Assembly: GCA_022767485.1 (NCBI GenBank) | Contig: JALEMY010000075.1 | Location: 1-41,456, forward strand | Reading direction: 5' to 3' | From: Erysipelotrichaceae bacterium | GTDB taxonomy: Bacteria > Bacillota_I > Bacilli_A > RFN20 > CAG-631 | Length of the DNA: 41,456 nucleotides | Part shown: positions 1 to 15,964 of the stretch, one piece after another | Numbering within the stretch: position 1 is the first letter of the stretch | Layout of the letters: every line of letters begins with the position of its first letter | Program-made: the position numbers and the translations under genes | Notes under the pieces: model-generated | The model's database searches: none | Seen by the model: only the letters and a program-made list of their open reading frames with translations | What the model was told of the DNA's origin: nothing

Positions 1-660
1 TAGTTTTGATAATTCATCATCCTTATTGTTAACTATCCAACTTGTTACATCCATCTCGTTAAACAATTCTTTTACGTGTGTTTCATAACTTTCTTCAATT
101 ATTATTAAACGATCATTTTTATTCATTAAGGAAATTAAATACTTTTGAAACTCAGTTTTGCCACTTCCGGTTTGTCCAGAAATCAAGACACTTTGATAAC
201 TTAGCATTAAAGCTTTTAAAAAATCGTGAACAAAATAAGGACATAAAAGAGGATCGTTTTCTTTTATTTTTAATATTGTTGTAATTCTTCTAAGTGAAAA
301 GGTAACTACCTTTTGATTATTGCTTCTTGCAATAAAGGGATGTATTGCATTTAATCGATAATCTCCAAAGGAAACATCTAATGATGGTGTTTTATTGGTG
401 AATGGTTTTAGCATATAGTTTGCTATTTTCTTAATAAAAGAAAAGACCTCATCTGATGATATTTTTATTGGAAGCATATAGCGACCAATTTCGTTATCTT
501 GAGCATAAAAAGAAACACCATTATAAGAAACGTCCGTAACATTATCATTAAATATTCCTTTTAAAAAAGAGTTTTCTACCAGCTTAACACATTCATCAGG
601 ATTTTCTTGAATAATATTATTATTATTTTTCTTAACTTTTTTCTTTTTAAATAGGCTCAT
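1..660 (-). CDS. CpaF/VirB11-type secretion ATPase, partial (3' end outside window)
   Basis: The frame is open from an ATG at 660 to the left edge with no stop (220 residues seen), so the gene is cut by the window. Residues 41-48 read VTDVSYNG, the motif that opens the N-terminal domain of CpaF/TadA ATPases. Residues 162-169 are a Walker A loop, GQTGSGKT, and residues 183-190 (DRLIIIEE) match the Asp-box/Walker B-like strand that follows it in T2SSE-family ATPases. The protein should be a cytoplasmic hexameric ATPase driving assembly of a pilus or pseudopilus-like secretion machine at the membrane. Its start overlaps the end of the upstream exported-protein gene by 14 bases, which implies one transcript and translational coupling. 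The N terminus is Lys/Asn-rich. The family is clear; which machine it powers (Tad-like, competence-like or something new) cannot be decided without the genes to the left. Confidence 0.85.
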   Translation of the reverse strand, partial: MSLFKKKKVKKNNNNIIQENPDECVKLVENSFLKGIFNDNVTDVSYNGVSFYAQDNEIGRYMLPIKISSDEVFSFIKKIANYMLKPFTNKTPSLDVSFGDYRLNAIHPFIARSNNQKVVTFSLRRITTILKIKENDPLLCPYFVHDFLKALMLSYQSVLISGQTGSGKTEFQKYLISLMNKNDRLIIIEESYETHVKELFNEMDVTSWIVNNKDDELSKL

Positions 661-1039
661 ACCTTACTACTTCCTCATATGTTTTGTTTAAATATTCCAG
701 CACTATTTTTATTTGAACACTATTACATTTATTATTTCCAATACTACATGACGTTAATGATTTTGCATCATAAAAATAATAATATTCTTTATGATTTAAA
801 AAAGACAAATTTGACATTATAATATCAACCATTTCTTTTAATGTTTCTTGACTTATTGCTAAATAGGAAATATCATTATATTTTAAATATTCCAGTTTGC
901 TTCTTTCACTAATCGATTGACTAACGAGTTCTGGATTTATTAGATTAAGCACATTATCTATGCGATTGGCCACTACAATATTAGTACATATTTGAACTGT
1001 CATTATAGTAGAAAGAACTATTATATAAAAATTATTCAT
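647..1039 (-). CDS. small exported or membrane-anchored protein, function unknown
   Basis: A 130-residue protein that I do not recognise. Residues 1-24 form one hydrophobic helix without a basic N-terminal region before it, which could be a signal anchor or a pilin-like stalk helix. The rest is polar, Tyr/Asn-rich and has two Cys close together (SLTSCSIGNNKC), which could form a disulfide outside the cell. It overlaps the exported protein gene upstream (8 bases) and the secretion ATPase gene downstream (14 bases). That packing suggests it is a subunit of the same system, perhaps a minor pseudopilin or TadE-like component, but no pilin peptidase site is evident. Confidence 0.6.
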   Translation of the reverse strand: MNNFYIIVLSTIMTVQICTNIVVANRIDNVLNLINPELVSQSISERSKLEYLKYNDISYLAISQETLKEMVDIIMSNLSFLNHKEYYYFYDAKSLTSCSIGNNKCNSVQIKIVLEYLNKTYEEVVRYEPI

Positions 1040-2039
1040 ATGTTACTCCTTGAAGTGGTGGTGAAACCTCTATATATTTGCAATCGAACACTTCACCAAA
1101 TTTTTCATCATATAAGTCGTCGATGTTATTTAAGCTTACAATAGTTTTAAATACATAGGTATTATGGTGTAAACCAATATCATTAAAACATATTTCAACT
1201 TCAATATTATTATCATTTACCATTGATAAAGGAAAGAAAAATGGTAATGATAGATCATCACAGGTACTAGTTTGCTCTTCAAAAATCATTCCTGTATTGT
1301 TATCAACATAGTATTTTTTTTCATTGCTAACAATGAAAGAATCAGATGATATTCTACTTAAAGTGATATCAGTTGTTGTGTAACCATTTTTATATAATAA
1401 ATCTGAACTATCAAATTTTTTATAGATTTTCATTTCGCATTGTTTTGAATACAAGCTAGTATTATTTAAAGTTATCGTATAATTATTTAAATCAAAGAAT
1501 CTTGATTTATCTAATGTGATATTTTTTTTACCATTTATGGTAACGCCTTCATAATACGATTTTGTTGTAAAATCTGCTCCTTTCATGGAAAAATCAATCT
1601 TTACAGGGTGTTCATCTTTAAATGTAATAGTGTCATTTAAAGGAGCAGTTAATGTTGCATATCTTGGGGCATATATTTTAAAAGTGCAAACGGAAGCAGG
1701 CACATTTTCTTCAATGTAATTTACAGAAATTTTAATATCTTTTTCTTCTTCGTTTCCACTAAATGATGAAATATAAAATGGAGATTGTGAAATGTATGCG
1801 GTAATCTCTTTTTTATAAACTTCTACAATATTATTGACATATATATAGATGTTAACGTAAGCAAATGGATGACCTTCAACCATGTTAAGAGTAATAGGTA
1901 TTTGCTCATTTATATCTTGAATATTATATGTTCCTTCAATGCTTATTGACTCGTTCGAAGCTACTTTTTTGATTGATAAATTGTTAAAGTTAACAATAAG
2001 TGGGAGAATTAGTATTGACTTAATAAATTTATATAACAT
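1032..2039 (-). CDS. secreted beta-rich protein, function unknown
   Basis: A 335-residue protein with a Sec-type signal peptide (MLYKFIKSILILPLIV, cleavage perhaps near residue 28). The mature part alternates short polar and hydrophobic stretches typical of beta-sandwich surface proteins, with several NYTI/NNTS-like Asn-rich loops and no repeat that I could find. No catalytic motif is visible. It begins inside the last codons of the small upstream gene (11-base overlap) and its end overlaps the next exported protein gene, so it belongs to the four-gene cluster with the CpaF-type ATPase. It may be a structural or adhesive part of that machine. This is inference from position only. Confidence 0.6.
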   Translation of the reverse strand: MLYKFIKSILILPLIVNFNNLSIKKVASNESISIEGTYNIQDINEQIPITLNMVEGHPFAYVNIYIYVNNIVEVYKKEITAYISQSPFYISSFSGNEEEKDIKISVNYIEENVPASVCTFKIYAPRYATLTAPLNDTITFKDEHPVKIDFSMKGADFTTKSYYEGVTINGKKNITLDKSRFFDLNNYTITLNNTSLYSKQCEMKIYKKFDSSDLLYKNGYTTTDITLSRISSDSFIVSNEKKYYVDNNTGMIFEEQTSTCDDLSLPFFFPLSMVNDNNIEVEICFNDIGLHHNTYVFKTIVSLNNIDDLYDEKFGEVFDCKYIEVSPPLQGVTYE

Positions 2040-2385
2040 AAAGTAGAAATTCGTTTAGAGCACTTTCTCTGACTTTATAATATGTTGAACGACGATAAAC
2101 ATTCATCCACCATTTTGAATCATTATTTGATTCAATATATTCTTTAATAATAAACTCTTTTGATTCTTTTGAAAGAGAATTTATTATCTCATCTATGTAA
2201 TTTATATAATGCTCTTGTTGTTCCTTTCTATATTTTTTATTTTCCGAGAATAAGCTTGAATATTGTCTTTCAATTTTGGCTTTTTTGTATTCGATCATAA
2301 TAAGCCTTACTTTTTTACTTTTTTCATTTGCTGATATTTTTGTGTTACTAACATGGTTATTATAAAGATATTTGTTTTTACACAT
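2029..2385 (-). CDS. small basic cytoplasmic protein, possible transcription regulator
   Basis: First gene of the left-edge cluster. The frame can open at a GTG at 2394, but the Shine-Dalgarno sequence GAGGAA lies directly against that codon. The ATG at 2385 sits 9 bases behind it and is the likelier start (118 residues). The protein is Lys/Glu/Tyr-rich and helical. Its C-terminal block (WWMNVYRRSTYYKVRESALNEF) resembles the C-terminal helix-turn-helix-like end of small sigma-70-region-4-like regulators such as ArpU and the mycoplasma MG284/MPN403 group. That resemblance is from memory and weak. If right, it could regulate the exported-protein/ATPase genes it is co-transcribed with. No signal peptide or membrane segment is present. 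Confidence 0.55.
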   Translation of the reverse strand: MCKNKYLYNNHVSNTKISANEKSKKVRLIMIEYKKAKIERQYSSLFSENKKYRKEQQEHYINYIDEIINSLSKESKEFIIKEYIESNNDSKWWMNVYRRSTYYKVRESALNEFLLYVI

Positions 2386-2435
2386 ACATTTCACTTCCTC
2401 TCACTTTTATTATAAAAAAAAGTGTTAATTTTTCC

Positions 2436-12067: not shown

Positions 12068-15000
12068 TTATTCAGCGTTGATAAGTGCCCATAATGGAGT
12101 GTAAGTATCTCCAAAATATGAAGTATCCAATGTCATAGCTTCAATAGTGCTAACAACATCAGCATATGTTTTTTCATCATTTAATAAGCTATTGATATTT
12201 TGTAGAATTGGATTAGTTAATGCCCAATTAATTCCACCACCATTATAGTTAGCAACAAATGTTTCTTCTCCTAGAAGAACTTTTGCAAGTTCAGTCTTTA
12301 CTAAACCTCTTTGAATTGCTGACTTAATAGTTCTTTCTCTTGTAACAACAAGTTTACCTTTAAAGATAGGATCTTCAGCAATGTCAACTCTAGATACTGT
12401 TAAGTCATCTAAGAAACCAGTAAAGATATTTGAGAATGTAACATCAGTACCTTTTGCAACTTGAAGTGTTGTATCATGACCATAGTCAACGGCATTAGTT
12501 CCTTCTAAACCTACTCGTTTATCAGTTGGAACAGTACCAATTGTAGTCCAAGCAGAACCAACTTGTGACATAACTAATGCTCTAACAACATCATATCCAG
12601 AATATACAATGTTATGTGTTGCCTCAGCATTATCTGATGCCCATTGTGTATAAGCAAATCCACCTTCTGGAATTACCATTGTTCCAGTTGCTACATCATA
12701 AGCAGGTGATGAAGCAAATGTTGCACTTCTTAAATAGTAATTTGCTTTAGGATTATTTAATTGTCCAATCCATTCAATTTTACCTTCAGCATTACAAATC
12801 ATTGTATAAGCCCATTGATTTTTCGTATTAGCTGTCCAATTTGCTTCTGAAGTTAATAAGATTGATGAAAATCCTGTGTCACCCCACATACGATTATCAA
12901 TATTATCATAATAAATTTCAGATACTGCTTCTGTAGGAACTGCAAATGAAGGATCAGCTTCCTTTAAAGCTGCAACTTTAGCATCAACAGCTTCAGCATA
13001 CGTATCATAGAAATTAAGATTATATGATGAATCTAAAGTAATAGATGTATAATCTCTTGTTGGAACTTCAACTTCATCTGGATGAACAACTTTAATTTGT
13101 TTTACGCCATTAACTTCAACAAGTCTAACTGTAATATCGTTAAATGTTCCAGCAGCAACTGTGTTGATATTAAGTTCATTGCCTACAGCTGCTAATGTTT
13201 CACCAAAGATATCAGCCCATAATGCTGACATATTAGCATCTTCATTGTAACCTGAAACAACAAAACCACCAGTAGGAACTAAAGCTTCATAGTGAGAAAA
13301 AGCTCCTGAAGCACCATTATCTTCACCCCATGCTACAAAGTCATCAGCAAGTTTGAAGAAATCACCAACTAATTGACCTTGATTAGCACTTGTAGATTTT
13401 GTAATAGAGCCATCAGTATAGAAATCATCTGCTGGAGATGCATATCCTGCACCAAAACCATAAGATGCATAGATGATTCTTCCTTCAGCATTTACTGCGA
13501 AACAATATCTCCAACCATTTGCATTATCAAATGTATGTCTTCCATCAACTTTTGTTGAAGCCATAGGGTTTGTTTCATCATCTACGAATACGCCAATACC
13601 TGTTTCAGAGCCATAACCATTAACGTTCATTGAAACTAGATAATTGCCTTCTTCAAGGGATGGAACATAAACTCTAACAGTTTTATTAACATTATCATAG
13701 AATAATCTTGTATCATCAGAGATACCATTATTTCTAGTATTTACAGCAGCATCAGATGTATCAGTTAATCCTAAAGCTTTTAATAAAGCTGTAGCAGCAC
13801 TACCATGAGAATTAATGACAAATCCACCTTCTGGAACTACGATTTCAAATTTTGCAGCTGCTGAACCATCTTCTGGAGTCCATGGTCCATAACCTTCTAA
13901 AAGATTAAATGCAGGGTTAGTTGTGTAATCATCAAGTGCTGGATTCACATAGTAACCAGTTCCCATAGGTCCACCATAACCATTTGCAGGATTAGAAACT
14001 AGATAATTAATTCTTCCTTGTTCATCTACAACAATTACAAGTCTCCATCTTGAATCAGAGTTTCCTTTTCCCCAATCTCCTTCAGTATGTAATTTTGCAT
14101 CTGCATCTACCATAACAGCAGTTGCGTCTGCACCAGCATCAGCATTTAATACAGATACAGGAGCTTGAAGAGAAAGTCCCATATCAGATGATAAATTGTT
14201 CCAAGCTGCATATTCAAATACTGCTCTATAAGAAGCATCAGCTTCACCAACAGTAATTTCAAGTTCTGCTTGACCTTCAGAGCCTTCAACGATAACCCAA
14301 GATACTGTTCCTTCTTCATCAATACTCATTACTTCCCAGTGAGTGAATTGATATTTATTATCAGCATTATTAGCTACTAATTCAACAACATCTCCTGAAG
14401 CATGAGCAGTTGTTACTGCTTCTAAAACTCCATCAACACCATCAACATCAACAGAAACATTGTAGTATCTTGAAATATCAGTTGAAGAGCCAACTTTACC
14501 TTGAACACTACCATTGAAGTTAACCATTGTACATAATACATCAACAGTATCACCAACACTTACTGTTTCAGGGAAAGCTGCTCTGTATAATGTGATTTCA
14601 GTATCTCCAATTTTAACAACTGAACTCTTAGATGTATTAATTGAAACAACAGTTGCCTTAACTAATTTAAATGATTTGTAATTGTTTTCAGCAACCCATA
14701 CATCTGCTACATTGTCAGCAGTAACTACAGTTGGAGTAACAGCAGGAATTGAACCATATCTTTCAAGAACTGTAATATCAGTTAATTCTTTTAATTCAAC
14801 ATCCCCACCATAAGTTATTTTCTTAGCATTAAATGCAATTGTAACACCTACTTGGTAAGCATCATTATTTAAATCATCAGAATATAGTAATACTCCAGCA
14901 CCAGTTTCATCTTGAATAACTGCTTCTTTACCATTTCTATAAGTAATAACACCTTTAACATTGTTTACTAAAGTGTCATCATCTAATGTTGCTAATGTGC

Positions 15001-15964
15001 TAACTGGAGTGTAAGTAACTACAGTATCAGCATCTGTTGATTCAAATCCCTTTGAAGGAGTTGCAAATTCTTGTTCGCCATCAGCGTTTTTAATTTCATC
15101 AGCAAGTCTTTCTCTTACAGATAATTTATGATCTTCATTTAATGATAGATATAAATGATCTAATGCACCATCTTTAGTAGTGTTTTCTAAGAATGTATTA
15201 TCTCTTACTGGAGCATTTGTAGCAAGACCTGTAATTTGTTTCCATAATTTTTGGAAAGTTACTTCTCTAGCATTTCCTTTTACTACAAAACCACCTTTTG
15301 GAACCATAAAGTCAAATAAATTCCAAGCAGGAACTTCAACACCATCAATTATTGCAGTTTCTGGCCAACCAGCAAATTCATCGTGAAGACTCCAAACATC
15401 CATCTTCCATGGATCAGAATCTGCATAATTATGGTAATAACCATCCATTGGTCCACCATATCCAGAGCCAGTTCCATATGATGCATAAACAATATAACCT
15501 TGTGCATCAACTGCAAAATAATAATCACCACAGTTTACATCATCTTTTAGTGGAACAGTGTGTCTTTCTGCGTTTTCCTCAACTTGAGAAATGTTGTTGA
15601 TAAATGGAGCAGCTGTTCCTTCAACATCGTAATCTGTCCATACAGTAATATTTGTTGCAGAATCATCGTAGTTAAATTCTACATCATAAGTAACAGCTTC
15701 AGGTAAAACTCTATCTTCAGATGAAGATTCTTCAACACTTGATTCTTCAGAAGATACTTCGCTTGATTCTTCTGAAGATACTTCACTTGATTCTTCAGAA
15801 GATACTTCTTGTGAACTTTCAGTAGATGGTTCTTCTGAAGATGGTGTGTTTGGTTCTGATGGTTGAGAAGATTCAGAAGTTTGATTATTTCCACAACCTG
15901 TTAAAACCAAAGAAAAAACACCTAAACTTATCAATAAACTTGATAATAATTTCTTTGAATTCAT
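12068..15964 (-). CDS. large repeat-containing surface lipoprotein
   Basis: A 1298-residue protein with a lipoprotein signal peptide, LVLTGC, putting the lipidated Cys at residue 24. Residues 25-85 are a Ser/Glu linker with SSEE-type repeats. Four copies of a roughly 110-145-residue module follow, at about 105-250, 595-735, 785-925 and 1030-1140. Three share an opening strand around a WRY/YYF-type aromatic core, xVDxxGxIxYxxY and a GYGGPM-like turn. All four end in VPxGGFxxxG or a close variant. Between copies 1 and 2 lie an OB-fold-like segment (about 325-400, GVITYRNGKEAVIQDETGAGVLLY) and an InlB B-repeat-like segment (about 498-587). It should be anchored outside the membrane and bind a polymer or partner. 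I see no catalytic signature. Ala/Val/Asp-rich composition contrasts with the Lys/Asn/Ile-rich neighbours. It has its own promoter and terminator. Confidence 0.85.
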   Translation of the reverse strand: MNSKKLLSSLLISLGVFSLVLTGCGNNQTSESSQPSEPNTPSSEEPSTESSQEVSSEESSEVSSEESSEVSSEESSVEESSSEDRVLPEAVTYDVEFNYDDSATNITVWTDYDVEGTAAPFINNISQVEENAERHTVPLKDDVNCGDYYFAVDAQGYIVYASYGTGSGYGGPMDGYYHNYADSDPWKMDVWSLHDEFAGWPETAIIDGVEVPAWNLFDFMVPKGGFVVKGNAREVTFQKLWKQITGLATNAPVRDNTFLENTTKDGALDHLYLSLNEDHKLSVRERLADEIKNADGEQEFATPSKGFESTDADTVVTYTPVSTLATLDDDTLVNNVKGVITYRNGKEAVIQDETGAGVLLYSDDLNNDAYQVGVTIAFNAKKITYGGDVELKELTDITVLERYGSIPAVTPTVVTADNVADVWVAENNYKSFKLVKATVVSINTSKSSVVKIGDTEITLYRAAFPETVSVGDTVDVLCTMVNFNGSVQGKVGSSTDISRYYNVSVDVDGVDGVLEAVTTAHASGDVVELVANNADNKYQFTHWEVMSIDEEGTVSWVIVEGSEGQAELEITVGEADASYRAVFEYAAWNNLSSDMGLSLQAPVSVLNADAGADATAVMVDADAKLHTEGDWGKGNSDSRWRLVIVVDEQGRINYLVSNPANGYGGPMGTGYYVNPALDDYTTNPAFNLLEGYGPWTPEDGSAAAKFEIVVPEGGFVINSHGSAATALLKALGLTDTSDAAVNTRNNGISDDTRLFYDNVNKTVRVYVPSLEEGNYLVSMNVNGYGSETGIGVFVDDETNPMASTKVDGRHTFDNANGWRYCFAVNAEGRIIYASYGFGAGYASPADDFYTDGSITKSTSANQGQLVGDFFKLADDFVAWGEDNGASGAFSHYEALVPTGGFVVSGYNEDANMSALWADIFGETLAAVGNELNINTVAAGTFNDITVRLVEVNGVKQIKVVHPDEVEVPTRDYTSITLDSSYNLNFYDTYAEAVDAKVAALKEADPSFAVPTEAVSEIYYDNIDNRMWGDTGFSSILLTSEANWTANTKNQWAYTMICNAEGKIEWIGQLNNPKANYYLRSATFASSPAYDVATGTMVIPEGGFAYTQWASDNAEATHNIVYSGYDVVRALVMSQVGSAWTTIGTVPTDKRVGLEGTNAVDYGHDTTLQVAKGTDVTFSNIFTGFLDDLTVSRVDIAEDPIFKGKLVVTRERTIKSAIQRGLVKTELAKVLLGEETFVANYNGGGINWALTNPILQNINSLLNDEKTYADVVSTIEAMTLDTSYFGDTYTPLWALINAE
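15738..15809 (-). repeat. 24-bp tandem repeat coding the Ser/Glu linker
   Basis: Three near-identical 24-bp copies (starts 15738, 15762, 15786) differ only at third-codon-like positions and encode VSSEESSE units. Length variation by slippage is plausible. Confidence 0.9.

Follow-up and report, generated by a model that had tools for sequence, protein, structure and literature searches.

An eight-gene Tad-like operon in the bacterial order RFN20, found almost always in genomes without a recognisable prepilin peptidase

Introduction

The window analysed here, a stretch of 41,456 nucleotides from an Erysipelotrichaceae bacterium of the order RFN20, opens with four overlapping genes, the last of which encodes a CpaF-type ATPase and runs off the edge of the contig. 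The locus raises the question of what kind of machine such genes build and how its pilins, if it has any, are matured. A recent review counts pilin, prepilin peptidase, ATPase and platform as the four core parts common to all type IV filament systems (PMC10191384). In an earlier survey, Mollicutes were one of only two groups found to have no such biosynthesis genes (PMC3244431). MSH loci have no peptidase of their own, but their genomes carry that of another system (PMC6668835), and Nanoarchaeota were the phylum in which no prepilin peptidase was detected (PMC4471445). The operon described here is inherited within one order, where it occurs in 91 of 147 genomes, 89 of them without a detected peptidase. 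No description of it was found in the openly accessible literature, although one may still exist.

Architecture of the operon

The four genes of the window lie on the minus strand at the coordinates given by an earlier sequence-only reading, and they overlap by 11, 8 and 14 bases, as that reading had it. The cassette starts with the gene for a small cytosolic protein, p121 (2029-2394), called as 121 amino acids. Its GTG start at 2394 is doubtful, and the protein probably has 118 residues, because the Shine-Dalgarno-like AGAGGAAGTGA immediately precedes an ATG at 2385. The genes that follow encode an exported protein of 335 amino acids (1032-2039), in which an N-terminal signal or anchor is followed by beta-sandwich domains, an N-terminally anchored protein of 130 amino acids (p130; 647-1039), and the CpaF/TadA-type ATPase (1-660). 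The window edge truncates the ATPase after the N-terminal 220 of its 384 residues.

The rest of the ATPase gene is found on a second contig, C167. Positions 1-141 of the window, which is contig C139, are identical to 141 bases of C167 in the opposite orientation, an overlap that is the signature of an assembly-graph join. Joined, the contigs encode an uninterrupted 384-residue ATPase that aligns end to end with the intact 384-residue gene of a same-genus relative at 72% identity; the join is therefore sound. On the plus strand of C167 (locus L004), the ATPase continues in frame at 142-636 and is followed by genes for two membrane proteins, TadB-like (605-1309, 234 amino acids) and TadC-like (1312-1974, 220 amino acids), for an N-anchored TadE/F-like protein (1967-2323, 118 amino acids), and for a pilin-like protein of 48 amino acids with one hydrophobic helix (2310-2456).

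An intrinsic-terminator-like hairpin stands at 2464-2487 of L004, 8 bases past the pilin-like stop. At the other end, a hairpin of the same type with a T run, on the minus strand of the window at 2446-2467 (one found, 0.3 expected), closes the upstream DUF2188-like gene, so that the operon begins below 2446. With hairpins flanking the first gene and the pilin-like gene, the operon comprises eight genes in the order p121, exported protein, p130, ATPase, TadB-like, TadC-like, TadE/F-like and pilin-like, and the four genes of the window are its front half. Three relatives, from the same genus and the same family, carry all eight on single contigs in unchanged order.

Leftward extension had been set beforehand as a test of the sequence-only reading, and it uncovered two platform proteins after the ATPase. 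The proposal that the genes form one unit is borne out by same-genus and same-family genomes, in which order and overlap are kept, and by the presence of the cassette in 64 loci of the order, a recurrence well beyond chance. The remark that pilin, TadE and prepilin peptidase features were not visible held for the peptidase, which is undetected in 89 of the 91 operon genomes, but not for the pilin-like and TadE-like genes, which both lie on C167.

The ATPase and the platform proteins

The ATPase matches PF00437 above the cut-off (4.9e-26, 91.7 bits), and its best relatives in the PDB are CpaF proteins, at about 2e-18 (1.9e-18), in line with the pilus-like system around a CpaF-type ATPase that had been proposed. 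Its Walker A motif (GQTGSGKT) is intact, as had been read. Across 21 aligned relatives, the G...GK of Walker A, the Glu of Walker B and the His of the His box do not vary. Profile match, structural relatives and conserved catalytic motifs together give the CpaF/TadA-type ATPase expected of a Tad machine.

The second Tad trait is a pair of homologous TadB/TadC-type platform proteins. The TadB-like and TadC-like proteins are mutually homologous, each final profile retrieving both, and two adjacent homologous membrane proteins occur in 62 of 64 loci, the second being lost to contig ends in the other two. Their matches to PF00482 (T2SSF) are weak, with 5 of 41 members matching (best 2e-5). A bridge to T2SSF is provided by a pair of B. 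subtilis element proteins, which the TadC profile finds at 1e-22 and 2e-20 and which give weak PF00482 matches of their own. In Pfam and NCBIfam, platform proteins from the family of the window itself matched at chance level.

The pilin-like and TadE/F-like proteins

The pilin-like proteins form a family of 48-66 residues with one helix. Their N-terminus reads M(S/G/A/T)E.K(G/A)(Q/T), with S or A also seen at position 7 and I, L, F or V at position 4. Among 63 sequences, residue 2 is small (S, G, T or A) in all, E3 and G/A6 are likewise present in 63/63, and K5 in 62/63; every start has a Shine-Dalgarno match ahead. Residue 2 is also small in 56 of 62 TadE-like proteins, and in both families such a residue permits the action of Met-aminopeptidase.

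The pilin-like protein resembles an Flp pilin in its size, its single helix and the G/A at position 6. Flp pilins are further defined by a class III leader with G-1, E+5 and Y+6, and here E5-Y6 is lacking. Pfam and profile searches with the 48-residue family returned nothing above chance and no match to Flp pilins. Among the TadE-like proteins, 4 of 35 members match PF16964 (TadF), at best at 6e-4. HHalign comparisons of the pilin-like, TadE-like and p130 families with one another and with class relatives yielded nothing significant, and no TadZ, TadG or CpaB/RcpC-like genes were evident in the cassette maps. The pilin-like gene is present in two tandem copies in loci L054 and L072 (genomes G010 and G024).

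p121, the exported protein and p130

The three remaining families differ in how fast they diverge. Between the window and the same-genus relative, the pilin-like protein is 71% identical, close to the ATPase, and the platform proteins are 63% and 58% identical; p130 reaches 52%, p121 and the TadE-like protein 36-39%. The exported protein is the least conserved of the operon, at 31%. p121 ends in a conserved WW...Y.(R/K)S.(Y/F) motif and matches no Pfam family in 38 members, the C terminus that had been read as regulator-like included. The two exported products had been said to belong to no familiar family, and Pfam searches agree, with no match for the exported protein in 55 members or for p130 in 56.

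Iterated HMM searches unite the exported proteins across the order in a single fast-diverging family, which is in place in nearly all 64 loci. An AlphaFold2 model of a homologue from the order (pLDDT 83) has beta-sandwich domains behind an N-terminal helix, and its matches among PDB folds were generic Ig-like sandwiches only (TM at most about 0.34). We infer that the protein is a putative adhesin or tip subunit, likely the one that binds. In loci L094 and L096 (G089 and G095), two tandem copies of the exported beta-rich gene stand upstream of the p130 gene, as though by duplication of the putative adhesin.

The AlphaFold2 model of p130 (pLDDT 94.2) comprises a long N-terminal helix at 2-32, three short helices and a three-stranded sheet, a predicted arrangement that in outline is that of a type IV pilin; a PDB fold search with it gave no match. 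On this modelled layout, p130 is a putative minor pilin. The two close cysteines that had been noticed in it are conserved to differing degrees: C98 is kept in 16/16 and C105 in about 90% of a 16-sequence alignment, and both are less conserved in a looser alignment of 56 sequences.

Distribution and inheritance

At a threshold of 1e-8, the ATPase profile matches 94 of the 147 genomes sampled from the order. G011, G025 and G053 were left out, since their only match is a weak GspE-type one that belongs to another system, and 91 operon-type genomes remain. They fall into families f1, f2, f5, f7 and f8; the profile found no operon-type ATPase in f3, f4 or f6. Gene order, assessed in 64 loci taken from the 91 genomes, is invariant, and spacing is nearly so. 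In these loci p130, the ATPase and TadB were recognised in all 64, the TadE-like gene in 62, the pilin-like gene in 61 and p121 in 52, some of the missing genes being due to contig ends. Co-occurrence in relatives had been named as a check on the sequence-only reading, and the invariance of the cassette favours one system. As a rule, a genome has a single copy.

In the phylogeny of 86 ATPases, all 64 sequences of the order are separated from 22 class relatives by a branch supported at 100/97, and the operon ATPases of the order form one clade. Among named records, those closest to the operon-bearing genomes come from uncultured Bacilli of rabbit, rumen and horse, from Candidatus Onthovivens and from Candidatus Fiminaster. 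In a sample of 58 genomes, PF00905 transpeptidases were found in f1, f4, f7 and the majority of f3, and none in f2, f5, f6 and f8. The main operon-bearing family is probably wall-less because it is without penicillin-binding transpeptidases, and the families that carry the operon include some that appear to have a wall and some that appear to have none. The mix of walled and wall-less families fits the description of RFN20 in the literature (PMC10868615).

Prepilin peptidase

PF01478 scored above its cut-off in only 5 of the 147 genomes of the order. A peptidase profile trained on these five retrieved the same five and one marginal match (0.001, in f4), and a mixed TadV/PilD profile built from class relatives retrieved the same five and weak matches, the best at 2.8e-4 in G054. 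By these three profiles, whose controls were positive, 89 of the 91 operon genomes have no prepilin peptidase. Operon and peptidase occur together only in G083 and G105, where the peptidase lies 3-6 kb from a GspE-type ATPase that belongs to another system. From the rest of the class, 61 genomes were selected because their ATPases are the nearest, and 58 of them are positive for PF01478. Set against 2 of 91, this is an odds ratio of about 0.001, although the genomes are not independent, some are incomplete (completeness is 81% for the window's own genome and 93-95% for three family relatives), and the peptidases of class relatives are in many cases part of a distinct type IV pilus locus. In one class relative (G147, family f9), a TadV-like gene of 122 amino acids directly follows TadC and shows what the cassette of the order is missing. 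Measured against the four core parts of type IV filaments, the operon has the ATPase and platform and likely the pilin, and no peptidase was found.

Because the peptidase is absent, the N-terminal hexapeptide of the pilin-like protein would be either retained or cut by another enzyme. One tentative reading, to which we give well below even chances, is that initiator-Met removal alone readies the pilin-like and TadE-like proteins, so that the machine would run without a prepilin peptidase. The conserved Glu3 would then take the role of Glu5, and wall-less gut bacteria would bear a fast-evolving adhesin on the filament. A firmer claim that the pilin is leaderless was softened, since MSEIKG followed by Q can also be read as a short class III-like site. 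That same site, K-G/A and then Q, looks as if still cut. It speaks for another account, slightly less probable still and compatible with the overall explanation preferred below, in which a Tad-like pilus undergoes ordinary leader cleavage by a peptidase too diverged for recognition. Against such a peptidase, all three profiles fail in 89 of 91 operon genomes yet succeed in five genomes of the order that have another system, PF01478 also succeeds in 58 of 61 class relatives, and the cassette, unlike that of G147, has no TadV-like gene inside it. If the operon does make filaments, leader cleavage is dispensable or is performed by another enzyme, and the operon supplies the genes of a surface filament in abundant uncultured gut bacteria.

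Comparison with known Tad systems

With the Tad or type IVc system (TadA-TadB-TadC-Flp-TadE/F-TadV), the operon has in common a CpaF/TadA-type ATPase, a TadB/TadC-like pair, a probably TadE/F-like protein and a tiny one-helix pilin-like protein, all in one operon. It differs from Tad in that, in 89 of 91 operon genomes, no TadV or other prepilin peptidase was found in locus or genome, no TadZ or CpaB/RcpC-like gene was seen in the cassette maps, the pilin-like protein is without the Flp E5-Y6, and three extra families absent from Pfam (p121, the exported protein and p130) are included. The operon is a reduced relative of the Tad machine and not an unrelated secretion system. Though it would work like a Tad machine, it is not to be filed as a Tad pilus because TadV and the Flp E5-Y6 were sought and not found.

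The tad locus of Bulleidia extructa, a member of the Erysipelotrichales, likewise places Tad-type genes in a Bacillota genome that is reduced, and encodes very small pilins and minor subunits that resemble pilins (PMC12786226). It has 13 genes with tadV first and was judged horizontally acquired (PMC12786226), whereas the operon of RFN20 has 8 genes and no tadV and is one clade within its order. The nearest ATPases and platform proteins are those of loci in Bacilli families f17, f25, f20, f9 and f13, in B. subtilis DE0224 and in Robertmurraya korlensis. Many of these loci encode pilin-like proteins of about 50 amino acids with very short N-termini, but they differ in having large surface proteins and, in f17, an N-anchored protein of 255-285 amino acids. 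Nearly all such Tad-like genomes of other Bacilli have a prepilin peptidase.

Some of these loci have features of their own. In L243, L244, L245 and L246 (f25 and f20), the pilin-like proteins of about 50 amino acids begin MKAFFEEYGLVLVV or MKAVISEYGL; they carry an E-Y motif like that of Flp and hardly any leader, and their genomes have a prepilin peptidase. Loci L189 (B. subtilis DE0224) and L191 (Robertmurraya korlensis) combine a Tad-type ATPase and platform with short pilin-like proteins (MDSHKGAITLILVV in L189). In L189 these genes stand beside one for a VirD4-type coupling protein; this is possibly a Tad-like pilus on a Gram-positive conjugative element.

Proposed machine and alternatives

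The operon probably builds a reduced Tad-like type IV filament, thin and adhesive, filament formation being inferred from the genes. A hexamer of the ATPase would drive the TadB/TadC platform, and a thin filament of the 48-66-residue pilin-like protein would be extruded from the membrane. The TadE/F-like protein and p130 would initiate or cap the filament, and the fast-diverging exported protein, located on or at it, would be the adhesion part. Maturation would either retain the N-terminal hexapeptide, with Met alone removed, or involve a cut after G/A6 by another enzyme.

Much the same parts could serve secretion, with short pseudopilus filaments, never long on the surface, pushing out the 335-residue exported protein, and perhaps others, as in type II secretion. 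In almost every locus the exported protein is indeed encoded within the operon and before the ATPase, and minor-pilin-like proteins are as numerous as the major one. This account is nonetheless unlikely: the exported protein carries its own N-terminal signal or anchor and, because of it, does not require a further step where the cell has a single membrane. A single tiny pilin-like protein, moreover, is typical of Tad filaments and not of pseudopili.

Uptake of DNA by a pilus serving ComEC is less probable again. ComEC is present in many genomes of the order, the window's own included, and Com pili are the minimal type IV filament of one-membrane cells (PMC10191384). The Com pilus (ComGA-GG, ComC) shares with the operon a small machine and a one-membrane cell without secretin, but it has one platform protein, a prepilin peptidase (PMC10191384) and larger pilins, while the operon encodes an ATPase of the CpaF type and a platform in two halves, has no peptidase and shows no link to ComEC. 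The occurrence of ComEC is in fact independent of the operon (59 of 91 genomes with it and 37 of 56 without; odds ratio 0.95, p = 1.0). Least probable of all, and only barely credible, is that the operon is part of a conjugative transfer system or what is left of one. It is suggested by the B. subtilis DE0224 locus, whose related ATPase and platform are accompanied by a VirD4-type coupling protein (PF02534, 2e-52). However, no coupling protein or VirB4-like gene was seen among the neighbours read in the locus maps of the order, the cassette is usually present once per genome in a fixed gene order, and the cassettes of the order are one clade, apart from B. subtilis-type loci.

Neighbouring genes

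The minus strand of the window encodes, at 12068-15964, a lipoprotein-like surface protein of 1298 amino acids without a Pfam match, Ser/Glu-rich near its N-terminus and with apparent internal repeats. Each of the four genomes from the family of the window encodes a SpoIVFA-like protein and a SpoIVFB-like M50 protease directly 3' of the operon (L004 2546-3779 on C167; L016 9382-10579; L017 10161-11517; L018 6763-8152). The pair was considered as a substitute for the peptidase and dropped: it follows the operon in f1 only and stands behind the terminator. In G001 it still follows the operon though rplU no longer adjoins, and in L018 the SpoIVFA-like partner is M23-type.
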